64,000 nt of DNA, taken from positions 1-64,000 of the forward strand of contig CAIVZM010000023.1 in the NCBI GenBank assembly GCA_903910385.1. The letters are read 5' to 3'. Position numbers and translations under genes: made by a program. The notes under the pieces are model-generated. The model saw only the letters and a list, made by a program, of their open reading frames with translations, was not told the DNA's origin and did no database searches. Source of the DNA: an uncultured Armatimonadota bacterium (GTDB taxonomy: Bacteria > Armatimonadota > Armatimonadia > Armatimonadales > Armatimonadaceae). Position 1 is the stretch's first letter, and each line of letters starts with the position of its first letter. This document shows positions 2,388 to 15,412 of this stretch, piece after piece.

Positions 2388-4448
2388 TTACCGGAACTCG
2401 CCGCCAAGGTTTGTCAATGCCGTACGCACTTCGATGAGCGCATTTTCGACATCCGCATCCCGAAGCGTGCCTTCGCCGGAGCGGAAGGTCAGGCGCAATG
2501 TCAGAGAACGATTTCCCTCGCCGACATTCGCTCCGGTGTATACATCCATCAGGCGCAACGATTCGAGAAGGTTTCCAGCGGCGGCGCGACTGGCTTCCTC
2601 GATAGTAGCATAGGGAATGGCGGATGGAAAGACGGGCGCAAGGTCGCGCACCACTGCCGGGAACTTCGGCAGGGGAGTGTAGCGGACAGTCGTATCAGTG
2701 GAAAGTGCGAAGAGTACGTCGCCGTCCAGATCGAACAGATATGTCCGGCGCGGCAAATCCTGCGCTTCCGCCACAATTTCCGAAACTTCCGCGATCATAC
2801 CGATCTCCCTGCCGGAGACGATGACCTTCGCCGTTCTTCCCGGATGCGTCACCGGATGCGTAGCCGGTAGAAACGACGGCTCGGAGATTCCCAGAGCGGC
2901 AAGCGTCTCCTCGACGGCTCCTTTGGCGAAATACAGATCGGCGGGGTAACTTTCCGGCTTCAAAGACCAGGCGGAAGGCATTGCCGAACCAAAGAGGACG
3001 CCCGTAATACGGATCGGCTCCTGATAAGCGCCTCCTTCCGCCTTACGGTAAACAGGACCCGCTTCGAAAATCGCGGCATCGCGTATACCCGAGGCGAACG
3101 CCCGCGCAATCACGGCGAACAGATTCGGAAGCAACGAAATACGAAGCGAGGCAAGTTCCGGCGATAGAGCGGATCGGATCATCACCCGGTGCGCAATCTC
3201 CTCCTCCGTAGCCAGTGAGGAAGGAGCGGTCAGCGCATGGGATTGCACTTCCTGAAAGCCCTGTCGTACCAGAGTCTCCCGCACCGTCGATAAAAACCGT
3301 CCGCGCCGTGAGTCGCCGCCCTGCGGATTTTGCAAGGGAGGCGAGGTTTCCGGCAGATTTTCATAACCGAGGGCGATACGTCCCACTTCCTCGGCGATAT
3401 CGTCCTCGATGGTGAGATCGGGACGCCAGGAAGGAATGACGCAGTCCAGAGCGCCCATCACCCGTTCGGTAGCGATCCCGAGGCGTTCCAGACCGGCGAT
3501 CATGTCATCCCGTTCGACATCAGCGCCCAGCAAAGCTCGGATACGATCCACTCTGGCGACAATATGATTGGGCGTCCACGGCTTTGCGATAACGTCGATC
3601 AATCCCGGTTCGCTGACACCCCCGGCGATCTCCTGAATCAACTCGGCGGCGCGTTCCGCCGCGATAGGAACCAGATTCGGGTCGACGAACCTTTCGTAGC
3701 GGTAGCTTGCCTCGGTGGCGATACCGAGTCGCCGTGCGGTGCGCCGGATAGACAGCGGATTGAAATGCGCCGATTCCAGAAGGATGTTGACCGTCCCTGA
3801 CGTGATTTCCGTGGGGCCGCCGCCCATGATTCCGGCAAGCGCGACGGGTTTTTCCGGGTCGCAGATACAGAGCATACCCGGCGCCAGTTCTCGCTCCTGA
3901 TCGTCGAGCGTCACCAGTTTTTCCCCTTCCCGCGCTTGCCGCACCACGATCTTCCCTTCGGCAAGGGTATCGAGGTCGAACGCATGGAGAGGTTGCCCCA
4001 GTTCGAGCATCACGAAATTCGTGATATCGACCACATTGTTGATGGTCTTATACTTCTCGCCCAGCGCCGCCGATAGCCGCTTTTGCATCCAGTAGGGGGT
4101 AGGGCCGATCTTGACGCCCCGGATGATTTTGGCGGCGTAACGCGGGCAGTTCTCGGCATCTTCTATGGTGATGCGCTCATTGTTGACCGCGCCGGAAGGG
4201 GAAGGAGCGGAAAGTGTGCGGTAGGACAGGTTCAGAGCGGCGGCGGCTTCTCGCGCCGTCCCATAGACGGACGCCCAATCGCCCCGGTTCGGCGTAATCT
4301 TCGTATAGAGAGTCGGGCCATCGGGCGTGTCCAGAATCTCTTCCACTTCAAGCCCAGCCATGGTGAGGGCGTCACAGAAGGATTGCAAGCCCGGAGTATC
4401 TTCGGGAACAGGGACGAATTCGCGCAACCACGCGACCGGAAGGCGCAT
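2388..4448 (-). CDS. pheT: phenylalanyl-tRNA synthetase beta subunit, OB-domain-less
   Basis: The beta subunit of the (alpha-beta)2 enzyme that charges tRNA-Phe. The start chosen is the ATG at 4448, which has GGAGAG six bases upstream; a GTG six codons further up would overlap that Shine-Dalgarno. The protein is about 686 residues, against the usual ~800. After MRLPVAWLREFVP and MAGLEVEEI it passes directly to the segment LYTKITPNRGDW, so the ~100-residue EMAP-like tRNA-binding OB insert of most bacterial PheT proteins is missing. The B3/B4 editing domain (about 110-300), B5 domain (about 315-390), catalytic-like core (about 400-590) and ferredoxin-fold anticodon-binding domain (about 595-686, RDLAPVFPS) are present. 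A TACAAT -10 lies at 4506-4511 on this strand, so the gene has its own promoter, away from pheS. Confidence 0.95.
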   Translation of the reverse strand: MRLPVAWLREFVPVPEDTPGLQSFCDALTMAGLEVEEILDTPDGPTLYTKITPNRGDWASVYGTAREAAAALNLSYRTLSAPSPSGAVNNERITIEDAENCPRYAAKIIRGVKIGPTPYWMQKRLSAALGEKYKTINNVVDITNFVMLELGQPLHAFDLDTLAEGKIVVRQAREGEKLVTLDDQERELAPGMLCICDPEKPVALAGIMGGGPTEITSGTVNILLESAHFNPLSIRRTARRLGIATEASYRYERFVDPNLVPIAAERAAELIQEIAGGVSEPGLIDVIAKPWTPNHIVARVDRIRALLGADVERDDMIAGLERLGIATERVMGALDCVIPSWRPDLTIEDDIAEEVGRIALGYENLPETSPPLQNPQGGDSRRGRFLSTVRETLVRQGFQEVQSHALTAPSSLATEEEIAHRVMIRSALSPELASLRISLLPNLFAVIARAFASGIRDAAIFEAGPVYRKAEGGAYQEPIRITGVLFGSAMPSAWSLKPESYPADLYFAKGAVEETLAALGISEPSFLPATHPVTHPGRTAKVIVSGREIGMIAEVSEIVAEAQDLPRRTYLFDLDGDVLFALSTDTTVRYTPLPKFPAVVRDLAPVFPSAIPYATIEEASRAAAGNLLESLRLMDVYTGANVGEGNRSLTLRLTFRSGEGTLRDADVENALIEVRTALTNLGGEFR

Positions 4449-4670
4449 ATCAAACTCTCCACACACCGCAGGACGCGCAACGTCCCGCCTTAAAAATTGC
4501 GACTAATTGTACCATGCGTCCGTACCGCTCAACCGCTTCACAACATCAAGATCGGATGCCACTGCCGACAAACATCGCTAAAGCGGAAATTCCAGCGGGA
4601 TGTCTGCAGGCGGTGTGTTAAGCATAGTCGCGTTCTGCGCGGCGGCAGGATCGCTCCAATAAAAAACCTC

Positions 4671-4789: not shown

Positions 4790-5419
4790 ATGAGGAAGGT
4801 CACGCTCGCGCTGTCTGATCGCTGTTTCCCCCGCTACGCTTTGCGTCCGCGCCCTCCGCGACGCTACGATTCCTTATCGGGCTGTATCGCTCTCCTTGCC
4901 GTTTCCTTTCTGCTGAGCGCCTGGGGATGCTCCCTTCCCGTGTCCTACGATCTGGCGGCGACCCATTCCTTGCCTCCATCTTCCTTACCTGCCTCATCCG
5001 TGCGGTCTCGTCCCGTACAGGACTGCGGTCCTCGCGCTTTGCTGCTGGTCGCCCAACACATCGGTATCCCAAATCCGCTATCGCTGATTGACCTAACGCA
5101 ACTTGCGGGCGTGCAGCAGGACGGGGCGAGTATGGCCGGAATGGTTGCGGCGGCGAAGGCGATGAAGCTCAAGGCCACCGGCGTGCAGATGGACGCAGAG
5201 GCGCTTGCCAATCTGCCTACGCCGGCGCTGGCGTGGGTGGACGGCAACCACTATGTCGCGGTCCTCAACGTCACCACCGATATCATCGGGGTGACCAGCG
5301 CCCGGATTCATGACCCCAACAAAGCCGACGCCGAAACGATGACGATTCCTGAACTGCTACGGCGCAGCGGCGGCGTTCTGCTCTTGCTGGAAAAAGACGA
5401 TCTGAAGAAAGGAAACTAA
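4790..5419 (+). CDS. lipoprotein C39-like cysteine peptidase
   Basis: A 209-residue protein with a basic N-terminus, a hydrophobic segment (about 31-46) and a lipobox-like SAWGC (Cys47), so probably a membrane-anchored lipoprotein facing outward. The rest is a C39-type papain fold. The visible triad is Cys79 in QDCGPRALL, His154 in GNHYVAV and Asp175 in IHDPN. C39 peptidases cut after double-glycine leaders. The oxyanion glutamine normally about six residues before the cysteine is not there (a Gln lies two before), so activity is likely but unproven. The ATG at 4790 follows AGGAGAG. The next gene encodes an RHS protein with a double-glycine motif, its likely substrate. Confidence 0.8.
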   Translation: MRKVTLALSDRCFPRYALRPRPPRRYDSLSGCIALLAVSFLLSAWGCSLPVSYDLAATHSLPPSSLPASSVRSRPVQDCGPRALLLVAQHIGIPNPLSLIDLTQLAGVQQDGASMAGMVAAAKAMKLKATGVQMDAEALANLPTPALAWVDGNHYVAVLNVTTDIIGVTSARIHDPNKADAETMTIPELLRRSGGVLLLLEKDDLKKGN

Positions 5420-5428
5420 ACGCAAAAC

Positions 5429-5471
5429 GGCCCGCTTTCCCTATCCGACCAAAGAGTATGGAAAACGGGCC
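5429..5471 (+). promoter_or_regulatory. hairpin between peptidase and RHS genes
   Basis: GGCCCGCTTTCC (5429-5440) pairs with GGAAAACGGGCC (5460-5471), a 12-bp stem with one mismatch and a 19-base loop. No U-run follows, so it is not a standard terminator. It could be an RNA-stability or partial-termination element setting the ratio of peptidase to RHS protein. Confidence 0.4.
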
Positions 5472-5604
5472 ATTCATCCCCCCCGAAGCGTTCGGGACAG
5501 TGGGTCATTATACACCCAATGTTCATTCCGCATAAACCCTGTGCGAAAGTTCCCGATACGCTTCCCGTTATTTTCGGGAAGGAGAAGCGCAATACGCGCA
5601 ACGA

Positions 5605-8600
5605 ATGTATTCCTACTGGCTACAAACCTCAAAGAGGGAATCCCTTTCGGATTCCCACCAAGCAATTAGACCTGCGTTAATAAGACCTACGTTAACACGA
5701 CCTGCGTTTGGCTTTTCCCATCGCCTGTTACGCTCGGTAGCTACCCTTACCACCGTCGCGATGCTGTGGCTGTCCGTCTCCCCGGCGATGGCGGCGATTG
5801 TCCATCGCCCCATTCTCGCTGGACACGTCCGCGCCCTTTCCCCAACCGAGATGAACGCTATCCTCGGCGGGCAGGGAGGGCGTCCCACCGCCGCGCCCCT
5901 GGACCAGGCGCCGGGGACCACCTATGCCTGGGAGGGGGACGCCGCCACCGCGTCCGGCGTTCTCAACACCGGCAACGGCAACAAGCTTACCTCGTTGCCT
6001 CTGGTCGGCTGGAAAGTCAAGGGCGGCAGGCTCGCTGTCGATCTGGCGCTGTATCACAACAGCCAGAGCGTCTACAACAACGAACTGGGACAGAAGTGGA
6101 CGCACTCGTACAATTTGTTCGTGGTCGAAGGGGTCACGGAACTGGGGGATGTCTCCTCGGTGCACTGGGGCAGCGACCTCGCCAACACCTACGCCCGTAG
6201 CGGCTCAACCTGCACGGCTCCCGCCGGTATCTACGATACGCTGGTCAAGACCGGGAGCGGGACCTCGGCGGTCTATGACCTGACGACCAAAGATCAGCTG
6301 GTCTACCACTTCACCACCAGCAACGCCGTCACCTGGTACTGTCAGACGATCAAGGACCGGAACAACAATACCATTACTCTGGGGCACAATGCCTCGGGCA
6401 ATGTCACCTCCGTCAGCGATGGGACAAGGACGCTGACCCTGACCTACACCAGCGGGCGCGTCTCCTCCATCACCGATCCAACCAGCCGGGTGTGGACCAT
6501 CACCTATAACGGGAGCGGGGACCTGACGCAGGTTTCGTATCCCCTGCTTGCCGGGGATGCGACCGTCTACAAGGTGCAGTACGGCTACAACACGGGCCAT
6601 GACATCACCAGCCTGACGGACAAGCGCGGCAAAATATGGACGTTCGCTTATGACGCCAGCCATAGCCTGACCTCGGAGACGGACCCTCTGGGGCATGCTA
6701 CGACCTACGCCTACACGTCCACCACGACCACCATTACCGATCCGCTGAGCCATGCGATGGTGCATACCTATGCGAGCGGCAGATTGGCATCGGTCAAGGA
6801 TGCGGCGCTGTACACCGAGTCCTATACCTACAACGCGTCCAACCAGAAGACGCGGGTGACGGACAGGCGGGGCAAAATATGGGACTACACCTATGACAGC
6901 AAGGGCAATGTCCTCACGAAGAAGAACCCGCTGCTCAAAACGTGGACCTATACCTACAACAGCAAGAACGATATCCTGACGGCGACGACTCCTCTGAGCA
7001 AGGTGACAACGTGGGCTTATGATACGGCGGGCAATCTGACCAGCGTGACCGATCCCCTGAGCCATGCCACCACCTTCGCCTACAACACCGATGGCACGGT
7101 CTACACGAAAACGGACGCCCTCTCGCATGTAACGACCTATGCCTACAACAGCAACGGGGATCTGATCACGGTCACGGACCCCCTGAGCCATGCGACCTCC
7201 ACCGGGTACGACACATTGGGGCGGGTCACCTCGGTAACGGACGCCACCAGCAGAGCGACCTCAACGGTTTATGACAACTGGGGCCGGGTGAGCAGCGTGA
7301 CCGCGCCGGGAAGCCGGACCACTTCCTTTGCCTATGACGCCAACGACAACAAAACCAGCGTCACGGACCCCTTGAGCAAAGTCAACTCGTATGTCTACGA
7401 TGACGCCAACCGCCTGACCAGCCATACCGACCCCAACAGCCGCGTCGTCTACTTCGGCTACGATAACGCCGACAACAAAACGTCCTTCACCGATGGCAGG
7501 GGCAAGATCACCAGCTACGGCTACACCGTGCGAAACCAGCTGTCCTCGATCTCCTACCCGGACAGCACGAGCGATGCCTACACCTACCTTGCGACCGGCG
7601 AACTGAACGTCAAGACGGATGGGCGGGCGGTGACCATTACCCACGCCTACGACGATGCGGGACGCTTGACCGGCAAGACCTACAGCGACAGTACGCCCTC
7701 GGTGACGCTTGCTTATGACAACGATGACCGCAAGACGAGCATGGTCGATGGCACGGGAACGACCACCTACGCCTGGGACGACGCGAGCAGGCTCACGACA
7801 AGGAGCGCACCGTCGGGGGCGGACTCGGTGGGCTTTTCCTACGATGCGGCGAACCGTCTCCTGACGCGCACGACAGCGGGAACGTCGGTGACGACCTTTG
7901 GCTATGATAACGCCGACAGGCTCACCAGCGTGACGTCTCCGGGGACTCTGGTAACCTCCTATACCTATGACAACGCCGGACGGACGCTGACCACGACCTA
8001 TCCCAACGGTTCGGTGCAGACCAAAGCCTACAGCACGAGCGAAGCCGATCTGTCCTCGGCGGTGACGAAAACGAGCGGGGCGGTGACACTGGACAGCCAT
8101 GCCTACACCTACAAAGGCGATGGGCGGAGGCTGACCGAGACGGTGACCAATGGGGATGTGATCACCTACGGGTATGACAACGCCGGGCAACTGACCAGCG
8201 AGGCGAGGACCGGGACGACGGCGTACAGCATCTCGTACACCTACGATAATGCGGGCAACCGGGCAACGAAGGTTCAGGGAGGGACGACCGACACCTACAC
8301 GTACGACAACGCCGAGAAACTGACCTCGACCAGCAGTAAGACGTATGGGTATGATAACGCGGGCAATGTGACCTCGGTTGTGAGCGGCGGAGTGACCACT
8401 GCGCTGACCTGGGACGCGGAGGAGCGATTAAAGACCGTTTCGGTGGGTGGTTCGACCACGCAGACCAACACCTACAACGGGTTAGGCCAGCGCACCAAGA
8501 AAGTGGAGGGCAGCAATACCTTTACCTTCACCCTGACCGATGACGCCATTGATAGCGATGTCCTCTCGGACGGCGCGGCCTCCTATATGCAGGGAGCGGG

Positions 8601-9288
8601 CGGTCTGATTGGCGAGACGCGAGGAGGAACCAGCAAGTACTACCACGCCGACGCTCTGGGAACCACACGGGCGATAACGAGCAGTAGCCAGACCAAAACG
8701 GACAGCCTCGACACGGACGCCTTTGGGATGAACGTTGCGGTGACGGGGACGACCCCGACGCCCTTTGGCTTTGCGGGGCAGCACGGCTACCAGAACGAGT
8801 CCGTGACCGGACTGATGCGCCTGGGACACCGGTTTTATGACGCCAGTGTCGGTAGGTTCCTCTCCCGTGATCCGATCCGTGACGGGTACAACTGGTACGC
8901 CTATGTCAACAATGATCCCGTAAATCATGTAGACCCGGAAGGGTTGGCGATAGGCGTAGATGATGCCATAGTAATATACTGGATTGTCGGCGGCATTATA
9001 GTAGTCGGCGGGATCGTCATCAAGTTTATTCACGACCATTGGGATGATCTGCCTACCATACAATGGCCAAGTCAGGCGAGTGGCGACTTGAGCCCGGAGG
9101 AATATGACAAGCATAAGCGAGCCCAAGAGGAGGCGGAAGCGCGAATCCGCGAACTTGAGGAACGTTTGAGAAACGCAAGAAAACATAAAGATAGGAAGGA
9201 TAGCCAAAACGATCTCGACAAGGAGAGAAAAAGGTGGGATGGGCATGACAAAGAAATAAAGCAAAAATGGCCTAACGGTCGCCCCTGA
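5605..9288 (+). CDS. Sec-exported YD-repeat (RHS) polymorphic toxin-like protein
   Basis: A 1227-residue RHS protein. Residues 1-63 look like a long Sec signal peptide (basic, then hydrophobic, ending SPAMA). Residues 78-89 read LSPTEMNAILGG, a double-glycine leader motif. An N-terminal globular part (about 95-260) precedes some 25-30 YD repeats (about 265-960), which would form the hollow RHS shell. The RHS core follows (GFAGQHGYQN near 1055, GRFLSRDPI near 1085), ending in DPEGL near 1110, the usual autocleavage point. The variable tip (1111-1227) begins with a membrane-like Val/Ile/Gly stretch and ends in a charged coiled region finishing WDGHDKEIKQKWPNGRP. I cannot assign the tip to a toxin family. 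The start has no good Shine-Dalgarno, so the first residues are uncertain. No PAAR or type VI genes are nearby. Confidence 0.9.
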   Translation: MYSYWLQTSKRESLSDSHQAIRPALIRPTLTRPAFGFSHRLLRSVATLTTVAMLWLSVSPAMAAIVHRPILAGHVRALSPTEMNAILGGQGGRPTAAPLDQAPGTTYAWEGDAATASGVLNTGNGNKLTSLPLVGWKVKGGRLAVDLALYHNSQSVYNNELGQKWTHSYNLFVVEGVTELGDVSSVHWGSDLANTYARSGSTCTAPAGIYDTLVKTGSGTSAVYDLTTKDQLVYHFTTSNAVTWYCQTIKDRNNNTITLGHNASGNVTSVSDGTRTLTLTYTSGRVSSITDPTSRVWTITYNGSGDLTQVSYPLLAGDATVYKVQYGYNTGHDITSLTDKRGKIWTFAYDASHSLTSETDPLGHATTYAYTSTTTTITDPLSHAMVHTYASGRLASVKDAALYTESYTYNASNQKTRVTDRRGKIWDYTYDSKGNVLTKKNPLLKTWTYTYNSKNDILTATTPLSKVTTWAYDTAGNLTSVTDPLSHATTFAYNTDGTVYTKTDALSHVTTYAYNSNGDLITVTDPLSHATSTGYDTLGRVTSVTDATSRATSTVYDNWGRVSSVTAPGSRTTSFAYDANDNKTSVTDPLSKVNSYVYDDANRLTSHTDPNSRVVYFGYDNADNKTSFTDGRGKITSYGYTVRNQLSSISYPDSTSDAYTYLATGELNVKTDGRAVTITHAYDDAGRLTGKTYSDSTPSVTLAYDNDDRKTSMVDGTGTTTYAWDDASRLTTRSAPSGADSVGFSYDAANRLLTRTTAGTSVTTFGYDNADRLTSVTSPGTLVTSYTYDNAGRTLTTTYPNGSVQTKAYSTSEADLSSAVTKTSGAVTLDSHAYTYKGDGRRLTETVTNGDVITYGYDNAGQLTSEARTGTTAYSISYTYDNAGNRATKVQGGTTDTYTYDNAEKLTSTSSKTYGYDNAGNVTSVVSGGVTTALTWDAEERLKTVSVGGSTTQTNTYNGLGQRTKKVEGSNTFTFTLTDDAIDSDVLSDGAASYMQGAGGLIGETRGGTSKYYHADALGTTRAITSSSQTKTDSLDTDAFGMNVAVTGTTPTPFGFAGQHGYQNESVTGLMRLGHRFYDASVGRFLSRDPIRDGYNWYAYVNNDPVNHVDPEGLAIGVDDAIVIYWIVGGIIVVGGIVIKFIHDHWDDLPTIQWPSQASGDLSPEEYDKHKRAQEEAEARIRELEERLRNARKHKDRKDSQNDLDKERKRWDGHDKEIKQKWPNGRP
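8907..9018 (+). repeat. 112-bp block identical to 10551-10662 (copy 1)
   Basis: Read base by base, this stretch is identical to 10551-10662. It spans the end of the RHS core, the DPEGL junction and the following hydrophobic segment. The core sequences just upstream differ at many synonymous sites between the two loci. That makes this block a probable recent recombination or gene-conversion tract between the active RHS gene and the first orphan tip. Confidence 0.9.
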
Positions 9289-10154: not shown

Positions 10155-10230
10155 GTGAATTAGCAGTTATCCGACAACAACGACCTCGCCAGGATTTCCC
10201 GCCAGTCTCTCGGATGGCACGGCCTCTTAC

Positions 10231-11007
10231 ATGCAGGGAGCGGGCGGTCTGATAGGAGAGACCAGAGGAGGAACGACCAAGTACTACCATGCGGACGCCT
10301 TAGGCACGACGCGGGCGATAACCAACAGCGCTCAGACCAAAACGGACAGCCTCGACACCGACGCCTTTGGAATGAACGTGGCTGTCACGGGAACCACGCC
10401 CACGCCCTTTGGGTTTGCGGGGCAGCATGGTTACCAGAACGATTCCGTTACGGGGCTGATGCGGTTAGGGCATCGCTACTACGACGCCAGTGTCGGCAGG
10501 TTCCTTTCCCGTGATCCCATCCAGGATGGATACAACTGGTACGCCTATTGCAACAATGATCCCGTAAATCATGTAGACCCGGAAGGGTTGGCGATAGGCG
10601 TAGATGATGCCATAGTAATATACTGGATTGTCGGCGGCATTATAGTAGTCGGCGGGATCGTCCTCAATTACATCCACGACCATTGGAACGATCTGCCTAC
10701 CATACAATGGCCTGTCTTCTCTTCACCGCCCGGCCCACCGCCGCAACGCGATCCACAAGGTCAGCCATTGCCGCCCAATACGGATATTAATTGGGAGAAG
10801 CCCGGATTTCATGATGGTCACTATGATATCTACATACCTGCTCCCGAAGGAAAAAGCGAATGGCGCTACTATCCGGGGAACCCTTCCAATCCGTGGGAAG
10901 AAAAGGAAAAAAGTATAAAGCGGCGAGAGAGACGTGAAGAAAACGATCGGAACAAGCGGGAAAAAGAAGAGCGACGGGTACGCGATGGCGGAAAACCTAA
11001 GCCATAG
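10231..11007 (+). CDS. orphan RHS tip cassette 1
   Basis: Homology to the RHS core begins abruptly near 10203, inside LSDGxASYMQGAGG, without signal peptide or YD repeats. The first internal ATG is at 10231. About 115 residues of core are followed by DPEGL and then the same hydrophobic segment as the main RHS gene. From about residue 160 the tip is unique: proline-rich, then FHDGHYDIYIP and a strongly charged Arg/Glu/Lys C-terminus. The bases 10551-10662 are identical to the main gene. No promoter or ribosome site is evident, so it is probably a silent reserve that becomes expressed after recombination into the main gene. The next gene is the presumed partner immunity gene. Confidence 0.8.
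   Translation: MQGAGGLIGETRGGTTKYYHADALGTTRAITNSAQTKTDSLDTDAFGMNVAVTGTTPTPFGFAGQHGYQNDSVTGLMRLGHRYYDASVGRFLSRDPIQDGYNWYAYCNNDPVNHVDPEGLAIGVDDAIVIYWIVGGIIVVGGIVLNYIHDHWNDLPTIQWPVFSSPPGPPPQRDPQGQPLPPNTDINWEKPGFHDGHYDIYIPAPEGKSEWRYYPGNPSNPWEEKEKSIKRRERREENDRNKREKEERRVRDGGKPKP
10551..10662 (+). repeat. 112-bp block identical to 8907-9018 (copy 2)
   Basis: The partner copy of the identical block, within orphan tip cassette 1. It ends just before the two tips diverge, where a crossover would swap one tip for the other. Confidence 0.9.
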
Positions 11008-11102
11008 AGGAGAATTTTCGCCTGAATAGGGTGCTACCACCGTGATACGTCATCAGAGACCACGCTCTCTGATGACGTTCATGATAAGTAAAGGAACAAC
11101 AA

Positions 11103-11594
11103 ATGACTGCTCTGAGCGGTGACGCCGTATATCCCGAAGATTTTAACGACCTTCCGTTTGACTACGATGAAAATGCCCAGCGGACGGAGTTGCGTTTTCG
11201 CGAGGATGCCTGCTATGCAGTTCTGAATGCGGAAGCGCTAATGGATTTATTATTCGGTTTAAAAGGGTTAGCGTTTGAGTATAAGATTCATGAGGATATT
11301 GATTTGTGGGCTACTATCGTCAATCCTGATGTCGGGGAAGATAGAGGTTTAAAACTTCTGACGATTTACTCCATTGAGGAGTCGGATAAAAGTCATCCCT
11401 TCTACCAAACTCATGGCACGTTCCGAACGGAGCAAGCCAGACCGGATGATTTGCCGCATCACCGACGGATTTTTTATGACGCTACTCGCGAGGAATTGCG
11501 CCAGATATTGCTGCCGCTGTATGACCTACTGCGTCAGAAAAGCGATAGTGTCGCGCTATTTACAAATCATCTGATCGTGCAAATGGCAAAATGA
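11103..11594 (+). CDS. hypothetical protein, candidate immunity to orphan tip 1
   Basis: A 163-residue acidic, soluble protein of unknown family, with no signal peptide or membrane segment. AAAGGA lies eight bases before the ATG at 11103. It sits 95 bases after orphan tip 1 and before orphan tip 2, matching the tip-immunity alternation seen in RHS and CDI orphan arrays. The high acidity (many Asp/Glu against a very basic tip) fits a neutralising partner, but this is inference. Confidence 0.65.
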   Translation: MTALSGDAVYPEDFNDLPFDYDENAQRTELRFREDACYAVLNAEALMDLLFGLKGLAFEYKIHEDIDLWATIVNPDVGEDRGLKLLTIYSIEESDKSHPFYQTHGTFRTEQARPDDLPHHRRIFYDATREELRQILLPLYDLLRQKSDSVALFTNHLIVQMAK

Positions 11595-11640
11595 CTCGGT
11601 AAGATTACTCGCCTATCTAGCGCCTCGGGCTTTTTGTGGA

Positions 11641-12381
11641 GTGATATCAACGCCTCTTGCACCTACCTGTGCAAGGCGAACCACACGGGCGATAACCAAC
11701 TCCTCGCAGACCAAGACCGACAGCCTCGACACGGACGCCTTTGGGATGAACGTTGCGGTGACGGGGACGACCCCGACGCCCTTTGGCTTTGCGGGGCAGC
11801 ACGGCTACCAGAACGATTCCGTGACCGGACTGATGCGCCTGGGACACCGGTCTTATGACGCCTCGGTGGGGCGGTTCCTCAGCCGTGACCCGATTCAGGA
11901 TGGCTACAACTGGTTCACATACGTAGGCAATGATCCGGTTAATGGGGTTGACCCGGAAGGTAGGGAAGGTCATCCAGCTATCGCTTACAATGACACAGAC
12001 AAAGTCCAATGGGTTATAATAACACCTGTGACAGGTAAAAAATTGCCTGTCATACCAGGGAACCCAAAAAAGAAAGAACCGCCTTTTTGGGTTTCTATCC
12101 CTAACGGTCCTAACTTGCCTGCCTACCCCGTCTATCCGATTGATGAAAAGGGAAAGAAGCAACCAGCCGACCCTAAGAAGTTTATCGTTCCTCTCCCGCC
12201 GAAGCAGTCTATAGGAGACGGTACGAACGTTGATGTGGATGGTATGTGGGGCAATGACGGTAAATGGCATCATCCACGTGGCGGCTTCTGGGGTTGGACT
12301 CCTACCTACTATTGGCCGATAGACGATTACCCTGATTTCAGACCAGGTGGCCCTGGCTCACATTATAGCGGGCCTCCATAG
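11641..12381 (+). CDS. orphan RHS tip cassette 2
   Basis: Core homology begins near 11687 (TRAITNSSQTKTDSLD), shorter than in cassette 1, and runs through GRFLSRDPI to VDPEGR. The unique tip (about 150 residues) differs completely from the others. It lacks the hydrophobic segment, is rich in Pro, Lys and Trp, and ends in a low-complexity Trp/Gly/Pro/Asp stretch. The GTG at 11641 is a nominal start upstream of the homologous part, and no ribosome-binding site supports it. The cassette is probably not expressed as it stands. Confidence 0.75.
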   Translation: MISTPLAPTCARRTTRAITNSSQTKTDSLDTDAFGMNVAVTGTTPTPFGFAGQHGYQNDSVTGLMRLGHRSYDASVGRFLSRDPIQDGYNWFTYVGNDPVNGVDPEGREGHPAIAYNDTDKVQWVIITPVTGKKLPVIPGNPKKKEPPFWVSIPNGPNLPAYPVYPIDEKGKKQPADPKKFIVPLPPKQSIGDGTNVDVDGMWGNDGKWHHPRGGFWGWTPTYYWPIDDYPDFRPGGPGSHYSGPP

Positions 12382-12406
12382 TAATCCTAATCAGGCGGCA
12401 ATCGCG

Positions 12407-12502
12407 CCATAAGCAGTGCGATCCATAAGCAGTGCGATCCATAAGCAGTGCGATCCATAAGCAGTGCGATCCATAAGCAGTGCGATCCATAAGCAGTGCG
12501 AT
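12407..12502. repeat. 16-bp tandem repeat, six perfect copies
   Basis: CCATAAGCAGTGCGAT is repeated six times without a spacer or mismatch, starting 26 bases after orphan tip 2. It is not CRISPR-like because there are no unique spacers. A palindromic hairpin follows at once. Such arrays vary by slippage. Confidence 0.95.
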
Positions 12503-12530
12503 GTGGACGTCCGCGATTGCAGACGTCCAC
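12503..12530. promoter_or_regulatory. hairpin directly after the 16-bp repeats
   Basis: GTGGACGTC (12503-12511) and GACGTCCAC (12522-12530) form a perfect 9-bp stem with a 10-base loop. It lies 18 bases upstream of the TPR gene. There is no U-run, so it is not a clear terminator. It could be a protein-binding palindrome or a translation-control hairpin. Confidence 0.5.
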
Positions 12531-12548
12531 TGATCCTAAGAGGCGAAT

Positions 12549-13085
12549 ATGAAGACTCGAAAAACAATCCTTGCAACAATCATTCTTCTTTTTACAGCGT
12601 TGACTTTCACACGAGAGGGGCGCGGCCTCCTTTACGAGGCATTATATGGTTTCGATGACCTACGAGCCTACAGGGGGGAAATCGTGGAATGTAATGTTTG
12701 GCTTCGCCTTGCCCCGCAGGATGCGGCGACGCACTTTCGTCTTGGACAACTGCTCGCTGACCATCTTAACGATGGTTGTGACCGTGAACGCAGACGGAAG
12801 GAAGCGATTCAGGAATTTCAATTGGCGATTGATTTGGATAACCGTAGGGACGCTGCCTATTTTGAATTAGGCTCTATGGCGATGAACGAATACAAAGACC
12901 TTACGCTTGCCAATGTTCTTTACAAAAAATGCGTAGAACTAAATCCTGCCGATTTTTCCTATCAATATGCTCTGGCGCAAAGTTACGAAGCACTGGGCGA
13001 CAATGTCGCTGCGGAGAAACATAGAAAGATTGGAGAAGGTCTTTTCACAATGTCCTATAAGAAACCTTTGTATAAAGAGCCGTGA
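12549..13085 (+). CDS. exported or membrane-anchored TPR protein, candidate immunity
   Basis: A 178-residue protein. Residues 7-22 form a single hydrophobic segment after a basic start, so it is secreted or anchored by its N-terminus. Residues about 50-160 carry roughly three tetratricopeptide-like units (for example AAYFELGSMAMNEY and SYQYALAQSYEALGDN). TPRs bind partner proteins. It occupies the slot after orphan tip 2, where an immunity gene is expected, but TPR proteins have many roles. A Shine-Dalgarno (AAGAGG) precedes the ATG at 12549. Confidence 0.7.
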   Translation: MKTRKTILATIILLFTALTFTREGRGLLYEALYGFDDLRAYRGEIVECNVWLRLAPQDAATHFRLGQLLADHLNDGCDRERRRKEAIQEFQLAIDLDNRRDAAYFELGSMAMNEYKDLTLANVLYKKCVELNPADFSYQYALAQSYEALGDNVAAEKHRKIGEGLFTMSYKKPLYKEP

Positions 13086-13246
13086 AAATCCTTATCCCAA
13101 TCCATTGATCTTTATCTCCTGTACTTTGTTCAAGTAGATGGCGATACGTGTATTCAGTCATTGGCGCAACACATCGAATGGGAGACAAGTCGCCGTTTTG
13201 GGCACTCCTATGGATAGACCGGTTATAGAGGCGCAATTTTCTGGTA

Positions 13247-13804
13247 CGATTAAAGACAGTTGCGATGGGCGGAACCACTACCCAGACCAACGCCTACAAC
13301 GGGATTGGACAGCGCGCCAAGAAAGTGGAGGGCGCAAACACCTTTACCTTCACGTTGCAGGACGACGCCATTGACTCTGATGTGCTCTCCGACGGTGCCG
13401 CTTCCTACATGCAGGGAGCGGGAGGACTGATAGGAGAAACCAGAGGAGGAACCAGCAAGTATTACCACGCGGACGCCTTAGGCACGACGCGGGCGATAAC
13501 CAACAGCAGCCAGACCAAAACAGACAGTCTGGACACGGACGCCTTTGGGATGAGCGTTGCGGTCACGGGGACGACGCCCACGCCCTTTGGCTTTGCGGGG
13601 CAACACGGCTACCAGAACGATTCGGTTACCGGACTGATGCGCCTAGGACACCGATTCTACGATGCGAGTGTCGGCAGGTTCCTCTCCCGTGACCCGATCC
13701 ACGATGGCGACAACTGGTACACCTACTCCAACAGTGACGCCGTTAACAGCATTGAACCTCCTCGTTTTTATCGATTCAAGTCAAGTGTAAGACGATGGCG
13801 TTGA
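13247..13804 (+). pseudogene. orphan RHS tip cassette 3, decayed
   Basis: Core homology begins near 13247 (within RLKTV) and is the longest of the orphan cores at about 160 codons; the first ATG is at 13265. It runs cleanly through GRFLSRDPI, then the junction that should read NDPVNxVDPEGL has become SDAVNSIEPPRF. The reading frame stops about 15 codons later. The autocleavage aspartate motif and any tip are therefore lost. No immunity-like gene follows before the minus-strand GNAT gene. I read it as a dead remnant marking the 3' edge of the island. Confidence 0.8.
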
Positions 13805-14422: not shown

Positions 14423-15412
14423 TTAAAATTGCTGAAGGAATCGCAAATCGTTGTCCAGGAAAAGACGCAGGTCATCGATTTTATGCCGGATCATCGGCAT
14501 GCGGTCGATGCCAAGCCCGAAGGCGAACCCGGTGTACTTTTCCGTATCCAACCCGGCGCGGCGCAGAATATTAGGGTGGATCAATCCGGCTCCGCCCAGT
14601 TCCAGCCAGCGGTCGCCCCACTTGATCGCCACTTCGACGCCCGGTTCGACAAAAGGAAAGAAGTCCGGACGGAAGCGAACGACGACATCCGGTCCGAACA
14701 TCCCCCGTGAGAACTCCGCCAGAACGCCCTTCAAATCCGCTAGAGATAGACCTTCGCCGACCGAGAAACCATCGACCTGATGGAATGTATGAGAATGGGT
14801 CGCATCCACCGCTTCATAGCGAAAGCAATGACCTACTGTGGCGATACGGTACGGCGGCTCACGATGCAGTTCGAAGAAGCGACCCTGCAAAGCGGTGGTC
14901 TGCGTTCGCAGGAGATGCGTATCATCCACGTAGAAGCTCGCCTGTTCATCGAAGGCGGGATGATCCGGCGGGAAGTTCAGCCAGTCGAAATTGTACTTGT
15001 ACTCTTCGATATCCGGCCCATCGAAAAATTCAAAGCCAAGACCGGTCATCACGCGCTTGACATCGTTCATGGTGGTCGTCAGCGGATGCAGGCGACCTCG
15101 TGGGCGTGCGCGACCCGGCAGGGTGATATCCAGAGTCTCGGCTAATTCTCGCGCCGAACGTTCCGCATCCGCCAGAAGCGCTTTGCGATCCGTGAGAGCC
15201 GCTTCCACACGCGCCTTCGCTTCGTTGAGCGCCTGTCCAAAAAGCGGTTTCTGGTCGGCAGACAACGACCCGATATTACGGAGCAGTCCGGTCAATTTCC
15301 CGGCTTTGCGACCCAGATAAGCGATATCCGCTTCGTCCAGTTCTTTCAGGGAGGGGGCGTCCCCGATAGTGCGGAGCGCTTCCGCTTCAATTCGTTCCAG
15401 TTCCTCTGTCAT
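14423..15412 (-). CDS. pheS: phenylalanyl-tRNA synthetase alpha subunit
   Basis: The 329-residue catalytic alpha subunit of PheRS. The N-terminal coiled coil occupies about 1-90. Class II motif 2 is seen around FRYEAVDATHSHTFHQVDGF and motif 3 at GFAFGLGIDRMPMIRH. Length is normal for the family. In most bacteria pheT follows at once, but here the next downstream gene is a GNAT and pheT lies about 10 kb further on. Gene order and strand are still the ancestral pheS then pheT. Confidence 0.97.
   Translation of the reverse strand: MTEELERIEAEALRTIGDAPSLKELDEADIAYLGRKAGKLTGLLRNIGSLSADQKPLFGQALNEAKARVEAALTDRKALLADAERSARELAETLDITLPGRARPRGRLHPLTTTMNDVKRVMTGLGFEFFDGPDIEEYKYNFDWLNFPPDHPAFDEQASFYVDDTHLLRTQTTALQGRFFELHREPPYRIATVGHCFRYEAVDATHSHTFHQVDGFSVGEGLSLADLKGVLAEFSRGMFGPDVVVRFRPDFFPFVEPGVEVAIKWGDRWLELGGAGLIHPNILRRAGLDTEKYTGFAFGLGIDRMPMIRHKIDDLRLFLDNDLRFLQQF

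Follow-up and report, generated by a model that had tools for sequence, protein, structure and literature searches.

Double-glycine leaders are cytoplasmic address tags for ABC exporters. The C39 peptidase domains that read them recognize Leu at -12, Glu at -8, Leu at -7 and a hydrophobic residue at -4, ahead of Gly-Gly, Gly-Ala or Gly-Ser (PMC6363468). Here we analyse a 64,000-nucleotide stretch of DNA from an uncultured Armatimonadota bacterium (contig CAIVZM010000023.1, positions 1 to 64,000; hereafter the window), in which a gene for an exported C39 peptidase lies upstream of a gene for a Sec-type RHS protein that carries a leader-type motif just behind its signal peptide. We consider it likely, from the sequences compared below, that the peptidase is tethered to the membrane after Sec export and trims the RHS protein after translocation, at the end of this leader.

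C39 activity outside the cytoplasm has a precedent, because FapD of the Pseudomonas functional amyloid system is a periplasmic, Sec-exported C39 peptidase whose Cys is required for Fap secretion; FapD is the one periplasmic C39 peptidase that has been studied, no canonical leader is present in the Fap substrates, and what FapD acts on was reported as unclear (PMC5557850). The C39 protein of the window resembles FapD in being Sec-exported, in its predicted action outside the cytoplasm and in being encoded with secreted partners (PMC5557850), but here a partner and a leader-type site can be identified, and the FapD-type profile (NCBIfam NF058616) matches the window protein only weakly (E 0.093; 12 bits against a cut-off of 330), so we rejected membership of that family. 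A survey of polymorphic toxins described processing peptidases within RHS toxins and listed C39 as a toxin domain (PMC3482391). The window locus shares with those systems the RHS shell, variable C-terminal tips, orphan cassettes and a dedicated peptidase, whereas the peptidases of that survey are described as auto-processing domains inside the toxin, and C39 figures there as a toxin domain and not as an exported N-terminal leader peptidase (PMC3482391).

The C39 peptidase and its RHS partner in the window

Three features make up the pair:
4790..5419, + strand: exported C39-family cysteine peptidase, 209 amino acids (PF03412 match, AlphaFold model with Foldseek, invariant triad)
5605..9288, + strand: RHS protein, 1227 amino acids, with a Sec-type signal, RHS/YD repeats and an RHS-associated core at residues 1038-1114 (PF05593, E 2e-76; TIGR03696, E 1.2e-18)
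5836..5871, + strand: C39-type leader motif LSPTEMNAILGG, RHS residues 78-89, presumably cut after Gly89 (profile score; same place in relatives)

The protein encoded at 4790-5419 matches Peptidase_C39 (PF03412) over residues 75-203 (E 1.5e-16, 60.9 bits against a curated cut-off of 22), as do all 16 relatives aligned with it, and the triad Cys79, His154 and Asp175 is kept in 16/16 diverse relatives in the alignment. The initial annotation, made from the sequence alone, had placed a C39-like peptidase with exactly these residues just upstream of the RHS gene, and both the profile match and the residue positions bear it out. The AlphaFold model is confident across the domain (predicted local distance difference test >90; block means of 91-98 from residue 81), and the closest solved structures found with Foldseek are the peptidase domains of PCAT1 (7n87), ComA (3k8u/5xe9) and LahT (6mpz). 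Fold, catalytic triad and leader pattern (L-12, E-8, L/M-7, I/L/V-4, G-2) are thus alike in the window pair and in the PCAT/AMS exporters, from which the locus differs in architecture: the window protein consists of the C39 domain alone, with neither the fused transmembrane and ATPase domains of those exporters nor an ABC exporter accompanying it, it is predicted to be anchored on the far side of the membrane, and its putative substrate is a 1200-residue Sec-exported RHS protein belonging to a group in which the -1 residue is often Lys, Arg or Ala. The predicted anchor consists of a hydrophobic segment (residues ~30-46) followed by a lipobox-like LSAWGC47, a weak lipobox with Trp at -2; a lipobox-like Cys behind a hydrophobic stretch also occurs in close relatives, and other families mostly have a signal anchor. 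Nearly all separate C39 proteins that are paired with RHS proteins bear a signal peptide, lipobox or signal anchor and are not ABC exporters.

The RHS protein has both the RHS repeats and the RHS-associated core that mark an RHS polymorphic toxin (PF05593, TIGR03696), and its tail matched no recognised toxin family at E<1 in domain profile searches. Its signal comprises a hydrophobic segment at residues ~45-62 and a signal-peptidase-like site (AMA/A, residues 61-64) with predicted cleavage after residue 63, which puts the start of the motif 15 residues, and its Gly-Gly bond 26 residues, from the mature N-terminus. The open reading frame (ORF) coordinates and the residue numbers of the triad and of LSPTEMNAILGG had been read correctly in the initial annotation. 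The motif fits the double-glycine leader pattern (L-12, E-8, L/M-7, hydrophobic -4, G-2), scores 14.6 against a leave-one-family-out profile and has a shuffle p of 0.001. It is kept at the same RHS position in the three other genera of the family that have the pair (L020 LTPLELARIHGA, L021 LTPLELQRIQGT, L022 LTAGEMARIFGA) amid poorly conserved surroundings, and the worry, raised in the initial annotation, that it might be missing from close homologues can be set aside.

The leader motif and the C39 gene across Armatimonadota

Of 291 Armatimonadota genomes searched with a profile of the C39 proteins, 105 had a match, and 100 loci were read. The C39 gene lies directly upstream of a same-strand, Sec-type RHS gene at ~36 loci in at least eight families, a count that takes in four loci (the window included) with a spurious ORF between the two genes and a few RHS ORFs that are fragments. 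The adjacency that the initial annotation had proposed to look for in related genomes is therefore recurrent. Overlap of the C39 and RHS genes by 4 nucleotides is frequent in the relatives, and many of the loci with neither a paired nor a fused RHS gene have the C39 gene next to a contig end. In a scan of named genomes with a narrow C39 alignment, matches were confined to Armatimonadota records or to metagenome-assembled genomes (MAGs) already in the set, and plasmids yielded only distant matches to C39 proteins of the window kind, the annotated ones being mostly ABC exporters.

For the comparison of RHS proteins with and without a C39 gene, RHS proteins were gathered with a profile built only from the residues after the motif, which added 40 loci without a known C39 gene, and the motif was scored with a leave-one-locus-out profile, a score >=8 being taken as positive. 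Of the RHS proteins preceded by a C39 gene, 32/34 had the motif, against 7/44 of the homologous RHS proteins without one (Fisher 1.6e-12), in agreement with the expectation that the two should co-occur. When profiles were trained on other families only, a shuffle p<0.005 was obtained for 29/34 proteins with C39 versus 4/38 without. Among these four, L190 begins at a contig edge, L192 adjoins a C39 match with an in-frame stop (G156, one TGA), and L064 shares its 6.9-kb contig with a C39 gene; only L189 is a true exception, in a genome that has C39 elsewhere. The C39-adjacent RHS proteins that miss are L069, where the motif sits in a split upstream ORF, and L077, which has a partial variant. In the window genome, the other RHS gene (L019) has neither C39 nor motif.

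On a tree of the RHS N-terminal domain the C39 label changes nine times by parsimony and at least five times across well-supported branches, with a bootstrap that is not fully settled and two rows labelled C39-less that may hold C39 (in L121 a C39 match lies on the same contig); the window RHS protein itself sits among mostly C39-less proteins. Because the label changes at least five times, the link between C39 and motif does not reflect a single shared ancestry, and shared ancestry alone was rejected on the tree together with the family-held-out profiles. Chance matching was likewise rejected, given the conservation, the shuffles and the contrast between RHS proteins with and without C39. In these comparisons the presence of the leader-type motif follows that of the C39 gene and not the family to which the RHS protein belongs.

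The register of the motif is equally informative. Over 28 loci, information peaks at -14 (R), -12 (L), -11 (S/T), -8 (E), -7 (M/L), -4 (L/I) and -2 (G), and the peaks at -12, -8, -7, -4 and -2 are the positions that are important for LahT150 and ComA leaders (PMC6363468). The RHS motif departs from the C39 leader pattern at two positions, the added Arg at -14 and the -1 residue, which is R/K in 20 loci, A in six, T in one and G only in the window; the last two motif residues are GA, GT and GA in the three closest relatives and mostly GR or GK elsewhere. Thus the initial reading of a Gly-Gly leader holds for the window and for the L-12/E-8/M/L-7/I/L-4/G-2 pattern at large, whereas the second Gly is not conserved in separate RHS proteins. 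A strict Gly-Gly requirement was rejected for those proteins (-1 mostly R/K or A) and kept for C39-RHS fusions in cis.

Such fusions are found among 21 C39 ORFs that are joined N-terminally to RHS repeats or form very long chains running towards RHS; L142, for example, encodes TPR, C39, DUF6531 and RHS (Pfam) in a single chain. In eight fusions (L075, L090, L097, L110, L113, L142 twice, L147) a leader-like stretch ending in Gly-Gly lies 10-30 residues past the C39 domain, and both glycines belong to just 16 invariant alignment columns. These natural fusions place C39, Gly-Gly motif and RHS in one predicted exported chain, in line with the proposed pairing of the two proteins for maturation. 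In the AlphaFold model of one fusion, the leader forms a short helix from -10 to -5 and a strand or bridge at -3/-2, the confidence of the leader block going from 90 to 71 and dropping to 36 past the Gly-Gly. The leader bound to LahT150 in the crystal is a helix followed by an extended stretch from -3 to -1 (PMC6363468), and the model suggests a similar leader that docks in the C39 active site.

Other fusions lack the Gly-Gly (L024, L071, L084, L094, L112, L115, L119, L140, L145, L149, L157), and many of these have in common a stretch rich in Cys and an RHS part with a GDPVNLATGEEEY-type beginning.

A third arrangement is found at ten loci, where a small exported non-RHS protein, mostly Cys-rich, carries a similar motif exactly two genes upstream of the C39 gene (for example LSTADMESIQGGC, LTIDDMAKVEGGC and PLSAEEMKDTGGRG). 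The window genome has such a locus as its second C39 cassette (L018, G000:C11, 6368-10091), which encodes a small exported Cys-rich protein with PLSAEEMKDTGGRG, an exported 391-residue protein, a C39 lipoprotein-like peptidase and a DUF2079 membrane protein. The order of motif-bearing small Sec protein, one exported protein and exported C39 is seen in L080, L087, L093, L096, L118, L123, L128, L134 and L148. These loci possibly represent a Sec-dependent peptide system, and since they carry a similar motif, the C39 leader route seems not to be confined to RHS proteins.

Proposed processing after Sec export and alternative roles of the C39 protein

The two genes, the conserved motif with its exact register, the co-occurrence, the fusions, the fold and the catalytic residues support the interpretation first put forward in the initial annotation, that an anchored C39 peptidase trims a Sec-exported RHS protein. 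Both proteins would exit the cytoplasm via Sec, and the peptidase would remain tethered to the membrane, by a lipid anchor in the window family and by a signal anchor in others. The RHS protein would emerge bearing, just past its signal peptide, a short helical leader that ends in Gly-Gly and displays the C39 recognition residues; the tethered C39 domain would then bind this leader and cut at its end, with removal of the N-terminal segment. Such trimming may complete the RHS shell on the outer face of the membrane, may free there a shell that its N-terminus still holds, or may allow its assembly or onward transport. In the fusions, a cut at the Gly-Gly would part peptidase from shell in cis. 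Cleavage, its position, a place of action outside the cytoplasm and any consequence for the RHS protein are inferred.

Several observations weigh against this reading. Some membrane-anchored C39 genes whose surroundings are complete lack any neighbour with the motif (L065, L027, L122 and others), so that peptidase homologues of the kind that the initial annotation had named as counter-evidence do exist, albeit as a minority. On average, RHS loci that lack C39 are more distantly related. The -1 residue is mostly Arg or Lys in separate RHS proteins, outside the set of Gly-Gly, Gly-Ala and Gly-Ser, and the Gly-Gly of the window is a minority state. Moreover, 13 C39-RHS fusions have no Gly-Gly past the C39 domain, and the Gln that normally precedes the catalytic Cys by six residues occurs in a few relatives but is missing from the window protein and from many others.

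The missing oxyanion Gln and the frequent Lys or Arg at -1, together with the HlyB-type domains that Foldseek also places among the structural neighbours of the window model, could point to a C39-like protein that serves as a tether or export chaperone, binding the leader but leaving it uncut. Such a role would resemble that of the inactive C39-like domains of HlyB-type exporters, which have no catalytic Cys, whereas Cys, His and Asp are invariant in the 16 diverse relatives and the exact Gly-Gly is kept in the eight cis fusions. The Gln is perhaps not essential, because in the LahT150 crystal it lies 4.3 Å from the oxyanion oxygen and the catalytic His is nearer (PMC6363468). We consider binding without cleavage unlikely.

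Arg at -14 equals the C39 residues in conservation and is not predicted by C39 recognition, which, along with K/R at -1, would fit a sorting or retention element of the exported RHS protein, the C39 protein acting elsewhere, for instance on the RHS C-terminal tip or on a third protein. Homologous exported RHS proteins without C39 mostly lack the motif, however, its conserved positions are those of C39 leaders, and a similar motif recurs two genes upstream of C39 in the ten loci with small non-RHS proteins, all of which makes this explanation improbable.

That the small C39 protein is a papain-like toxin or a relative of one, present by chance in a polymorphic-toxin island, is highly improbable: Tox-PLC39 is known as a toxin domain in RHS-type systems (PMC3482391) and the window model weakly matches the papain-like toxin/immunity pair 9l5u, but leader peptidases are better structural matches by several orders of magnitude in E-value, and the protein precedes RHS, as an upstream gene or an N-terminal domain, carries a membrane anchor and is not variable but conserved.

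The surrounding island and a possible wider C39 route

Two further features accompany the pair:
5429..5471, + strand: strong intergenic hairpin without a U-tract on the + strand (z -3.5 versus shuffles; similar in four relatives)
10207..13804, + strand: three orphan copies of the RHS C-terminal core with differing tails and small ORFs between them (300-nucleotide core, four copies, 69-86% identity)

The single promoter that the initial annotation had assigned to the C39 and RHS genes is unproven, as the genes are 185 nucleotides apart with the strong hairpin between them (many relatives have the 4-nucleotide overlap). Strong hairpins without a U-tract occur at the same intergenic place in L020, L022, L060 and L077 and differ in sequence. 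The orphan cores at 10207-13804 are possibly spare tip cassettes, and the small ORFs beside them possibly immunity genes. An anti-phage defence system was considered and rejected, a PADLOC search having returned no match. On either side of the C39-RHS island lie minus-strand genes (2388-4466 and 14423-15412) that, on reading their sequences, we take to be pheT-like and pheS-like, an arrangement that looks like an insertion of the island between the two. The window belongs to a 4.47-Mb draft genome in 84 contigs whose nearest named relatives are Armatimonadetes and Chthonomonadaceae MAGs.

The components of the proposed system are each known, and their combination, their location and the cis version appear to be new; in the open-access papers searched we found no account that couples an exported C39 peptidase with an RHS protein bearing a leader. 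With somewhat less confidence than for the RHS pair, we favour the idea that Armatimonadota use a general extracytoplasmic route, in which Sec export would be followed by cleavage of a double-glycine-type leader by a tethered C39 peptidase, serving RHS proteins in trans and in cis as well as small Cys-rich peptides, with the -1 preference broadened from G/A/S to K/R. Because peptidase, partner and probable cut site occur together dozens of times, fusions included, both the processing of Sec-exported proteins by C39 and the way in which Sec-exported RHS proteins are released can now be tested directly, and for a large class of secreted proteins that lack annotation the pairing predicts where the N-terminus lies.
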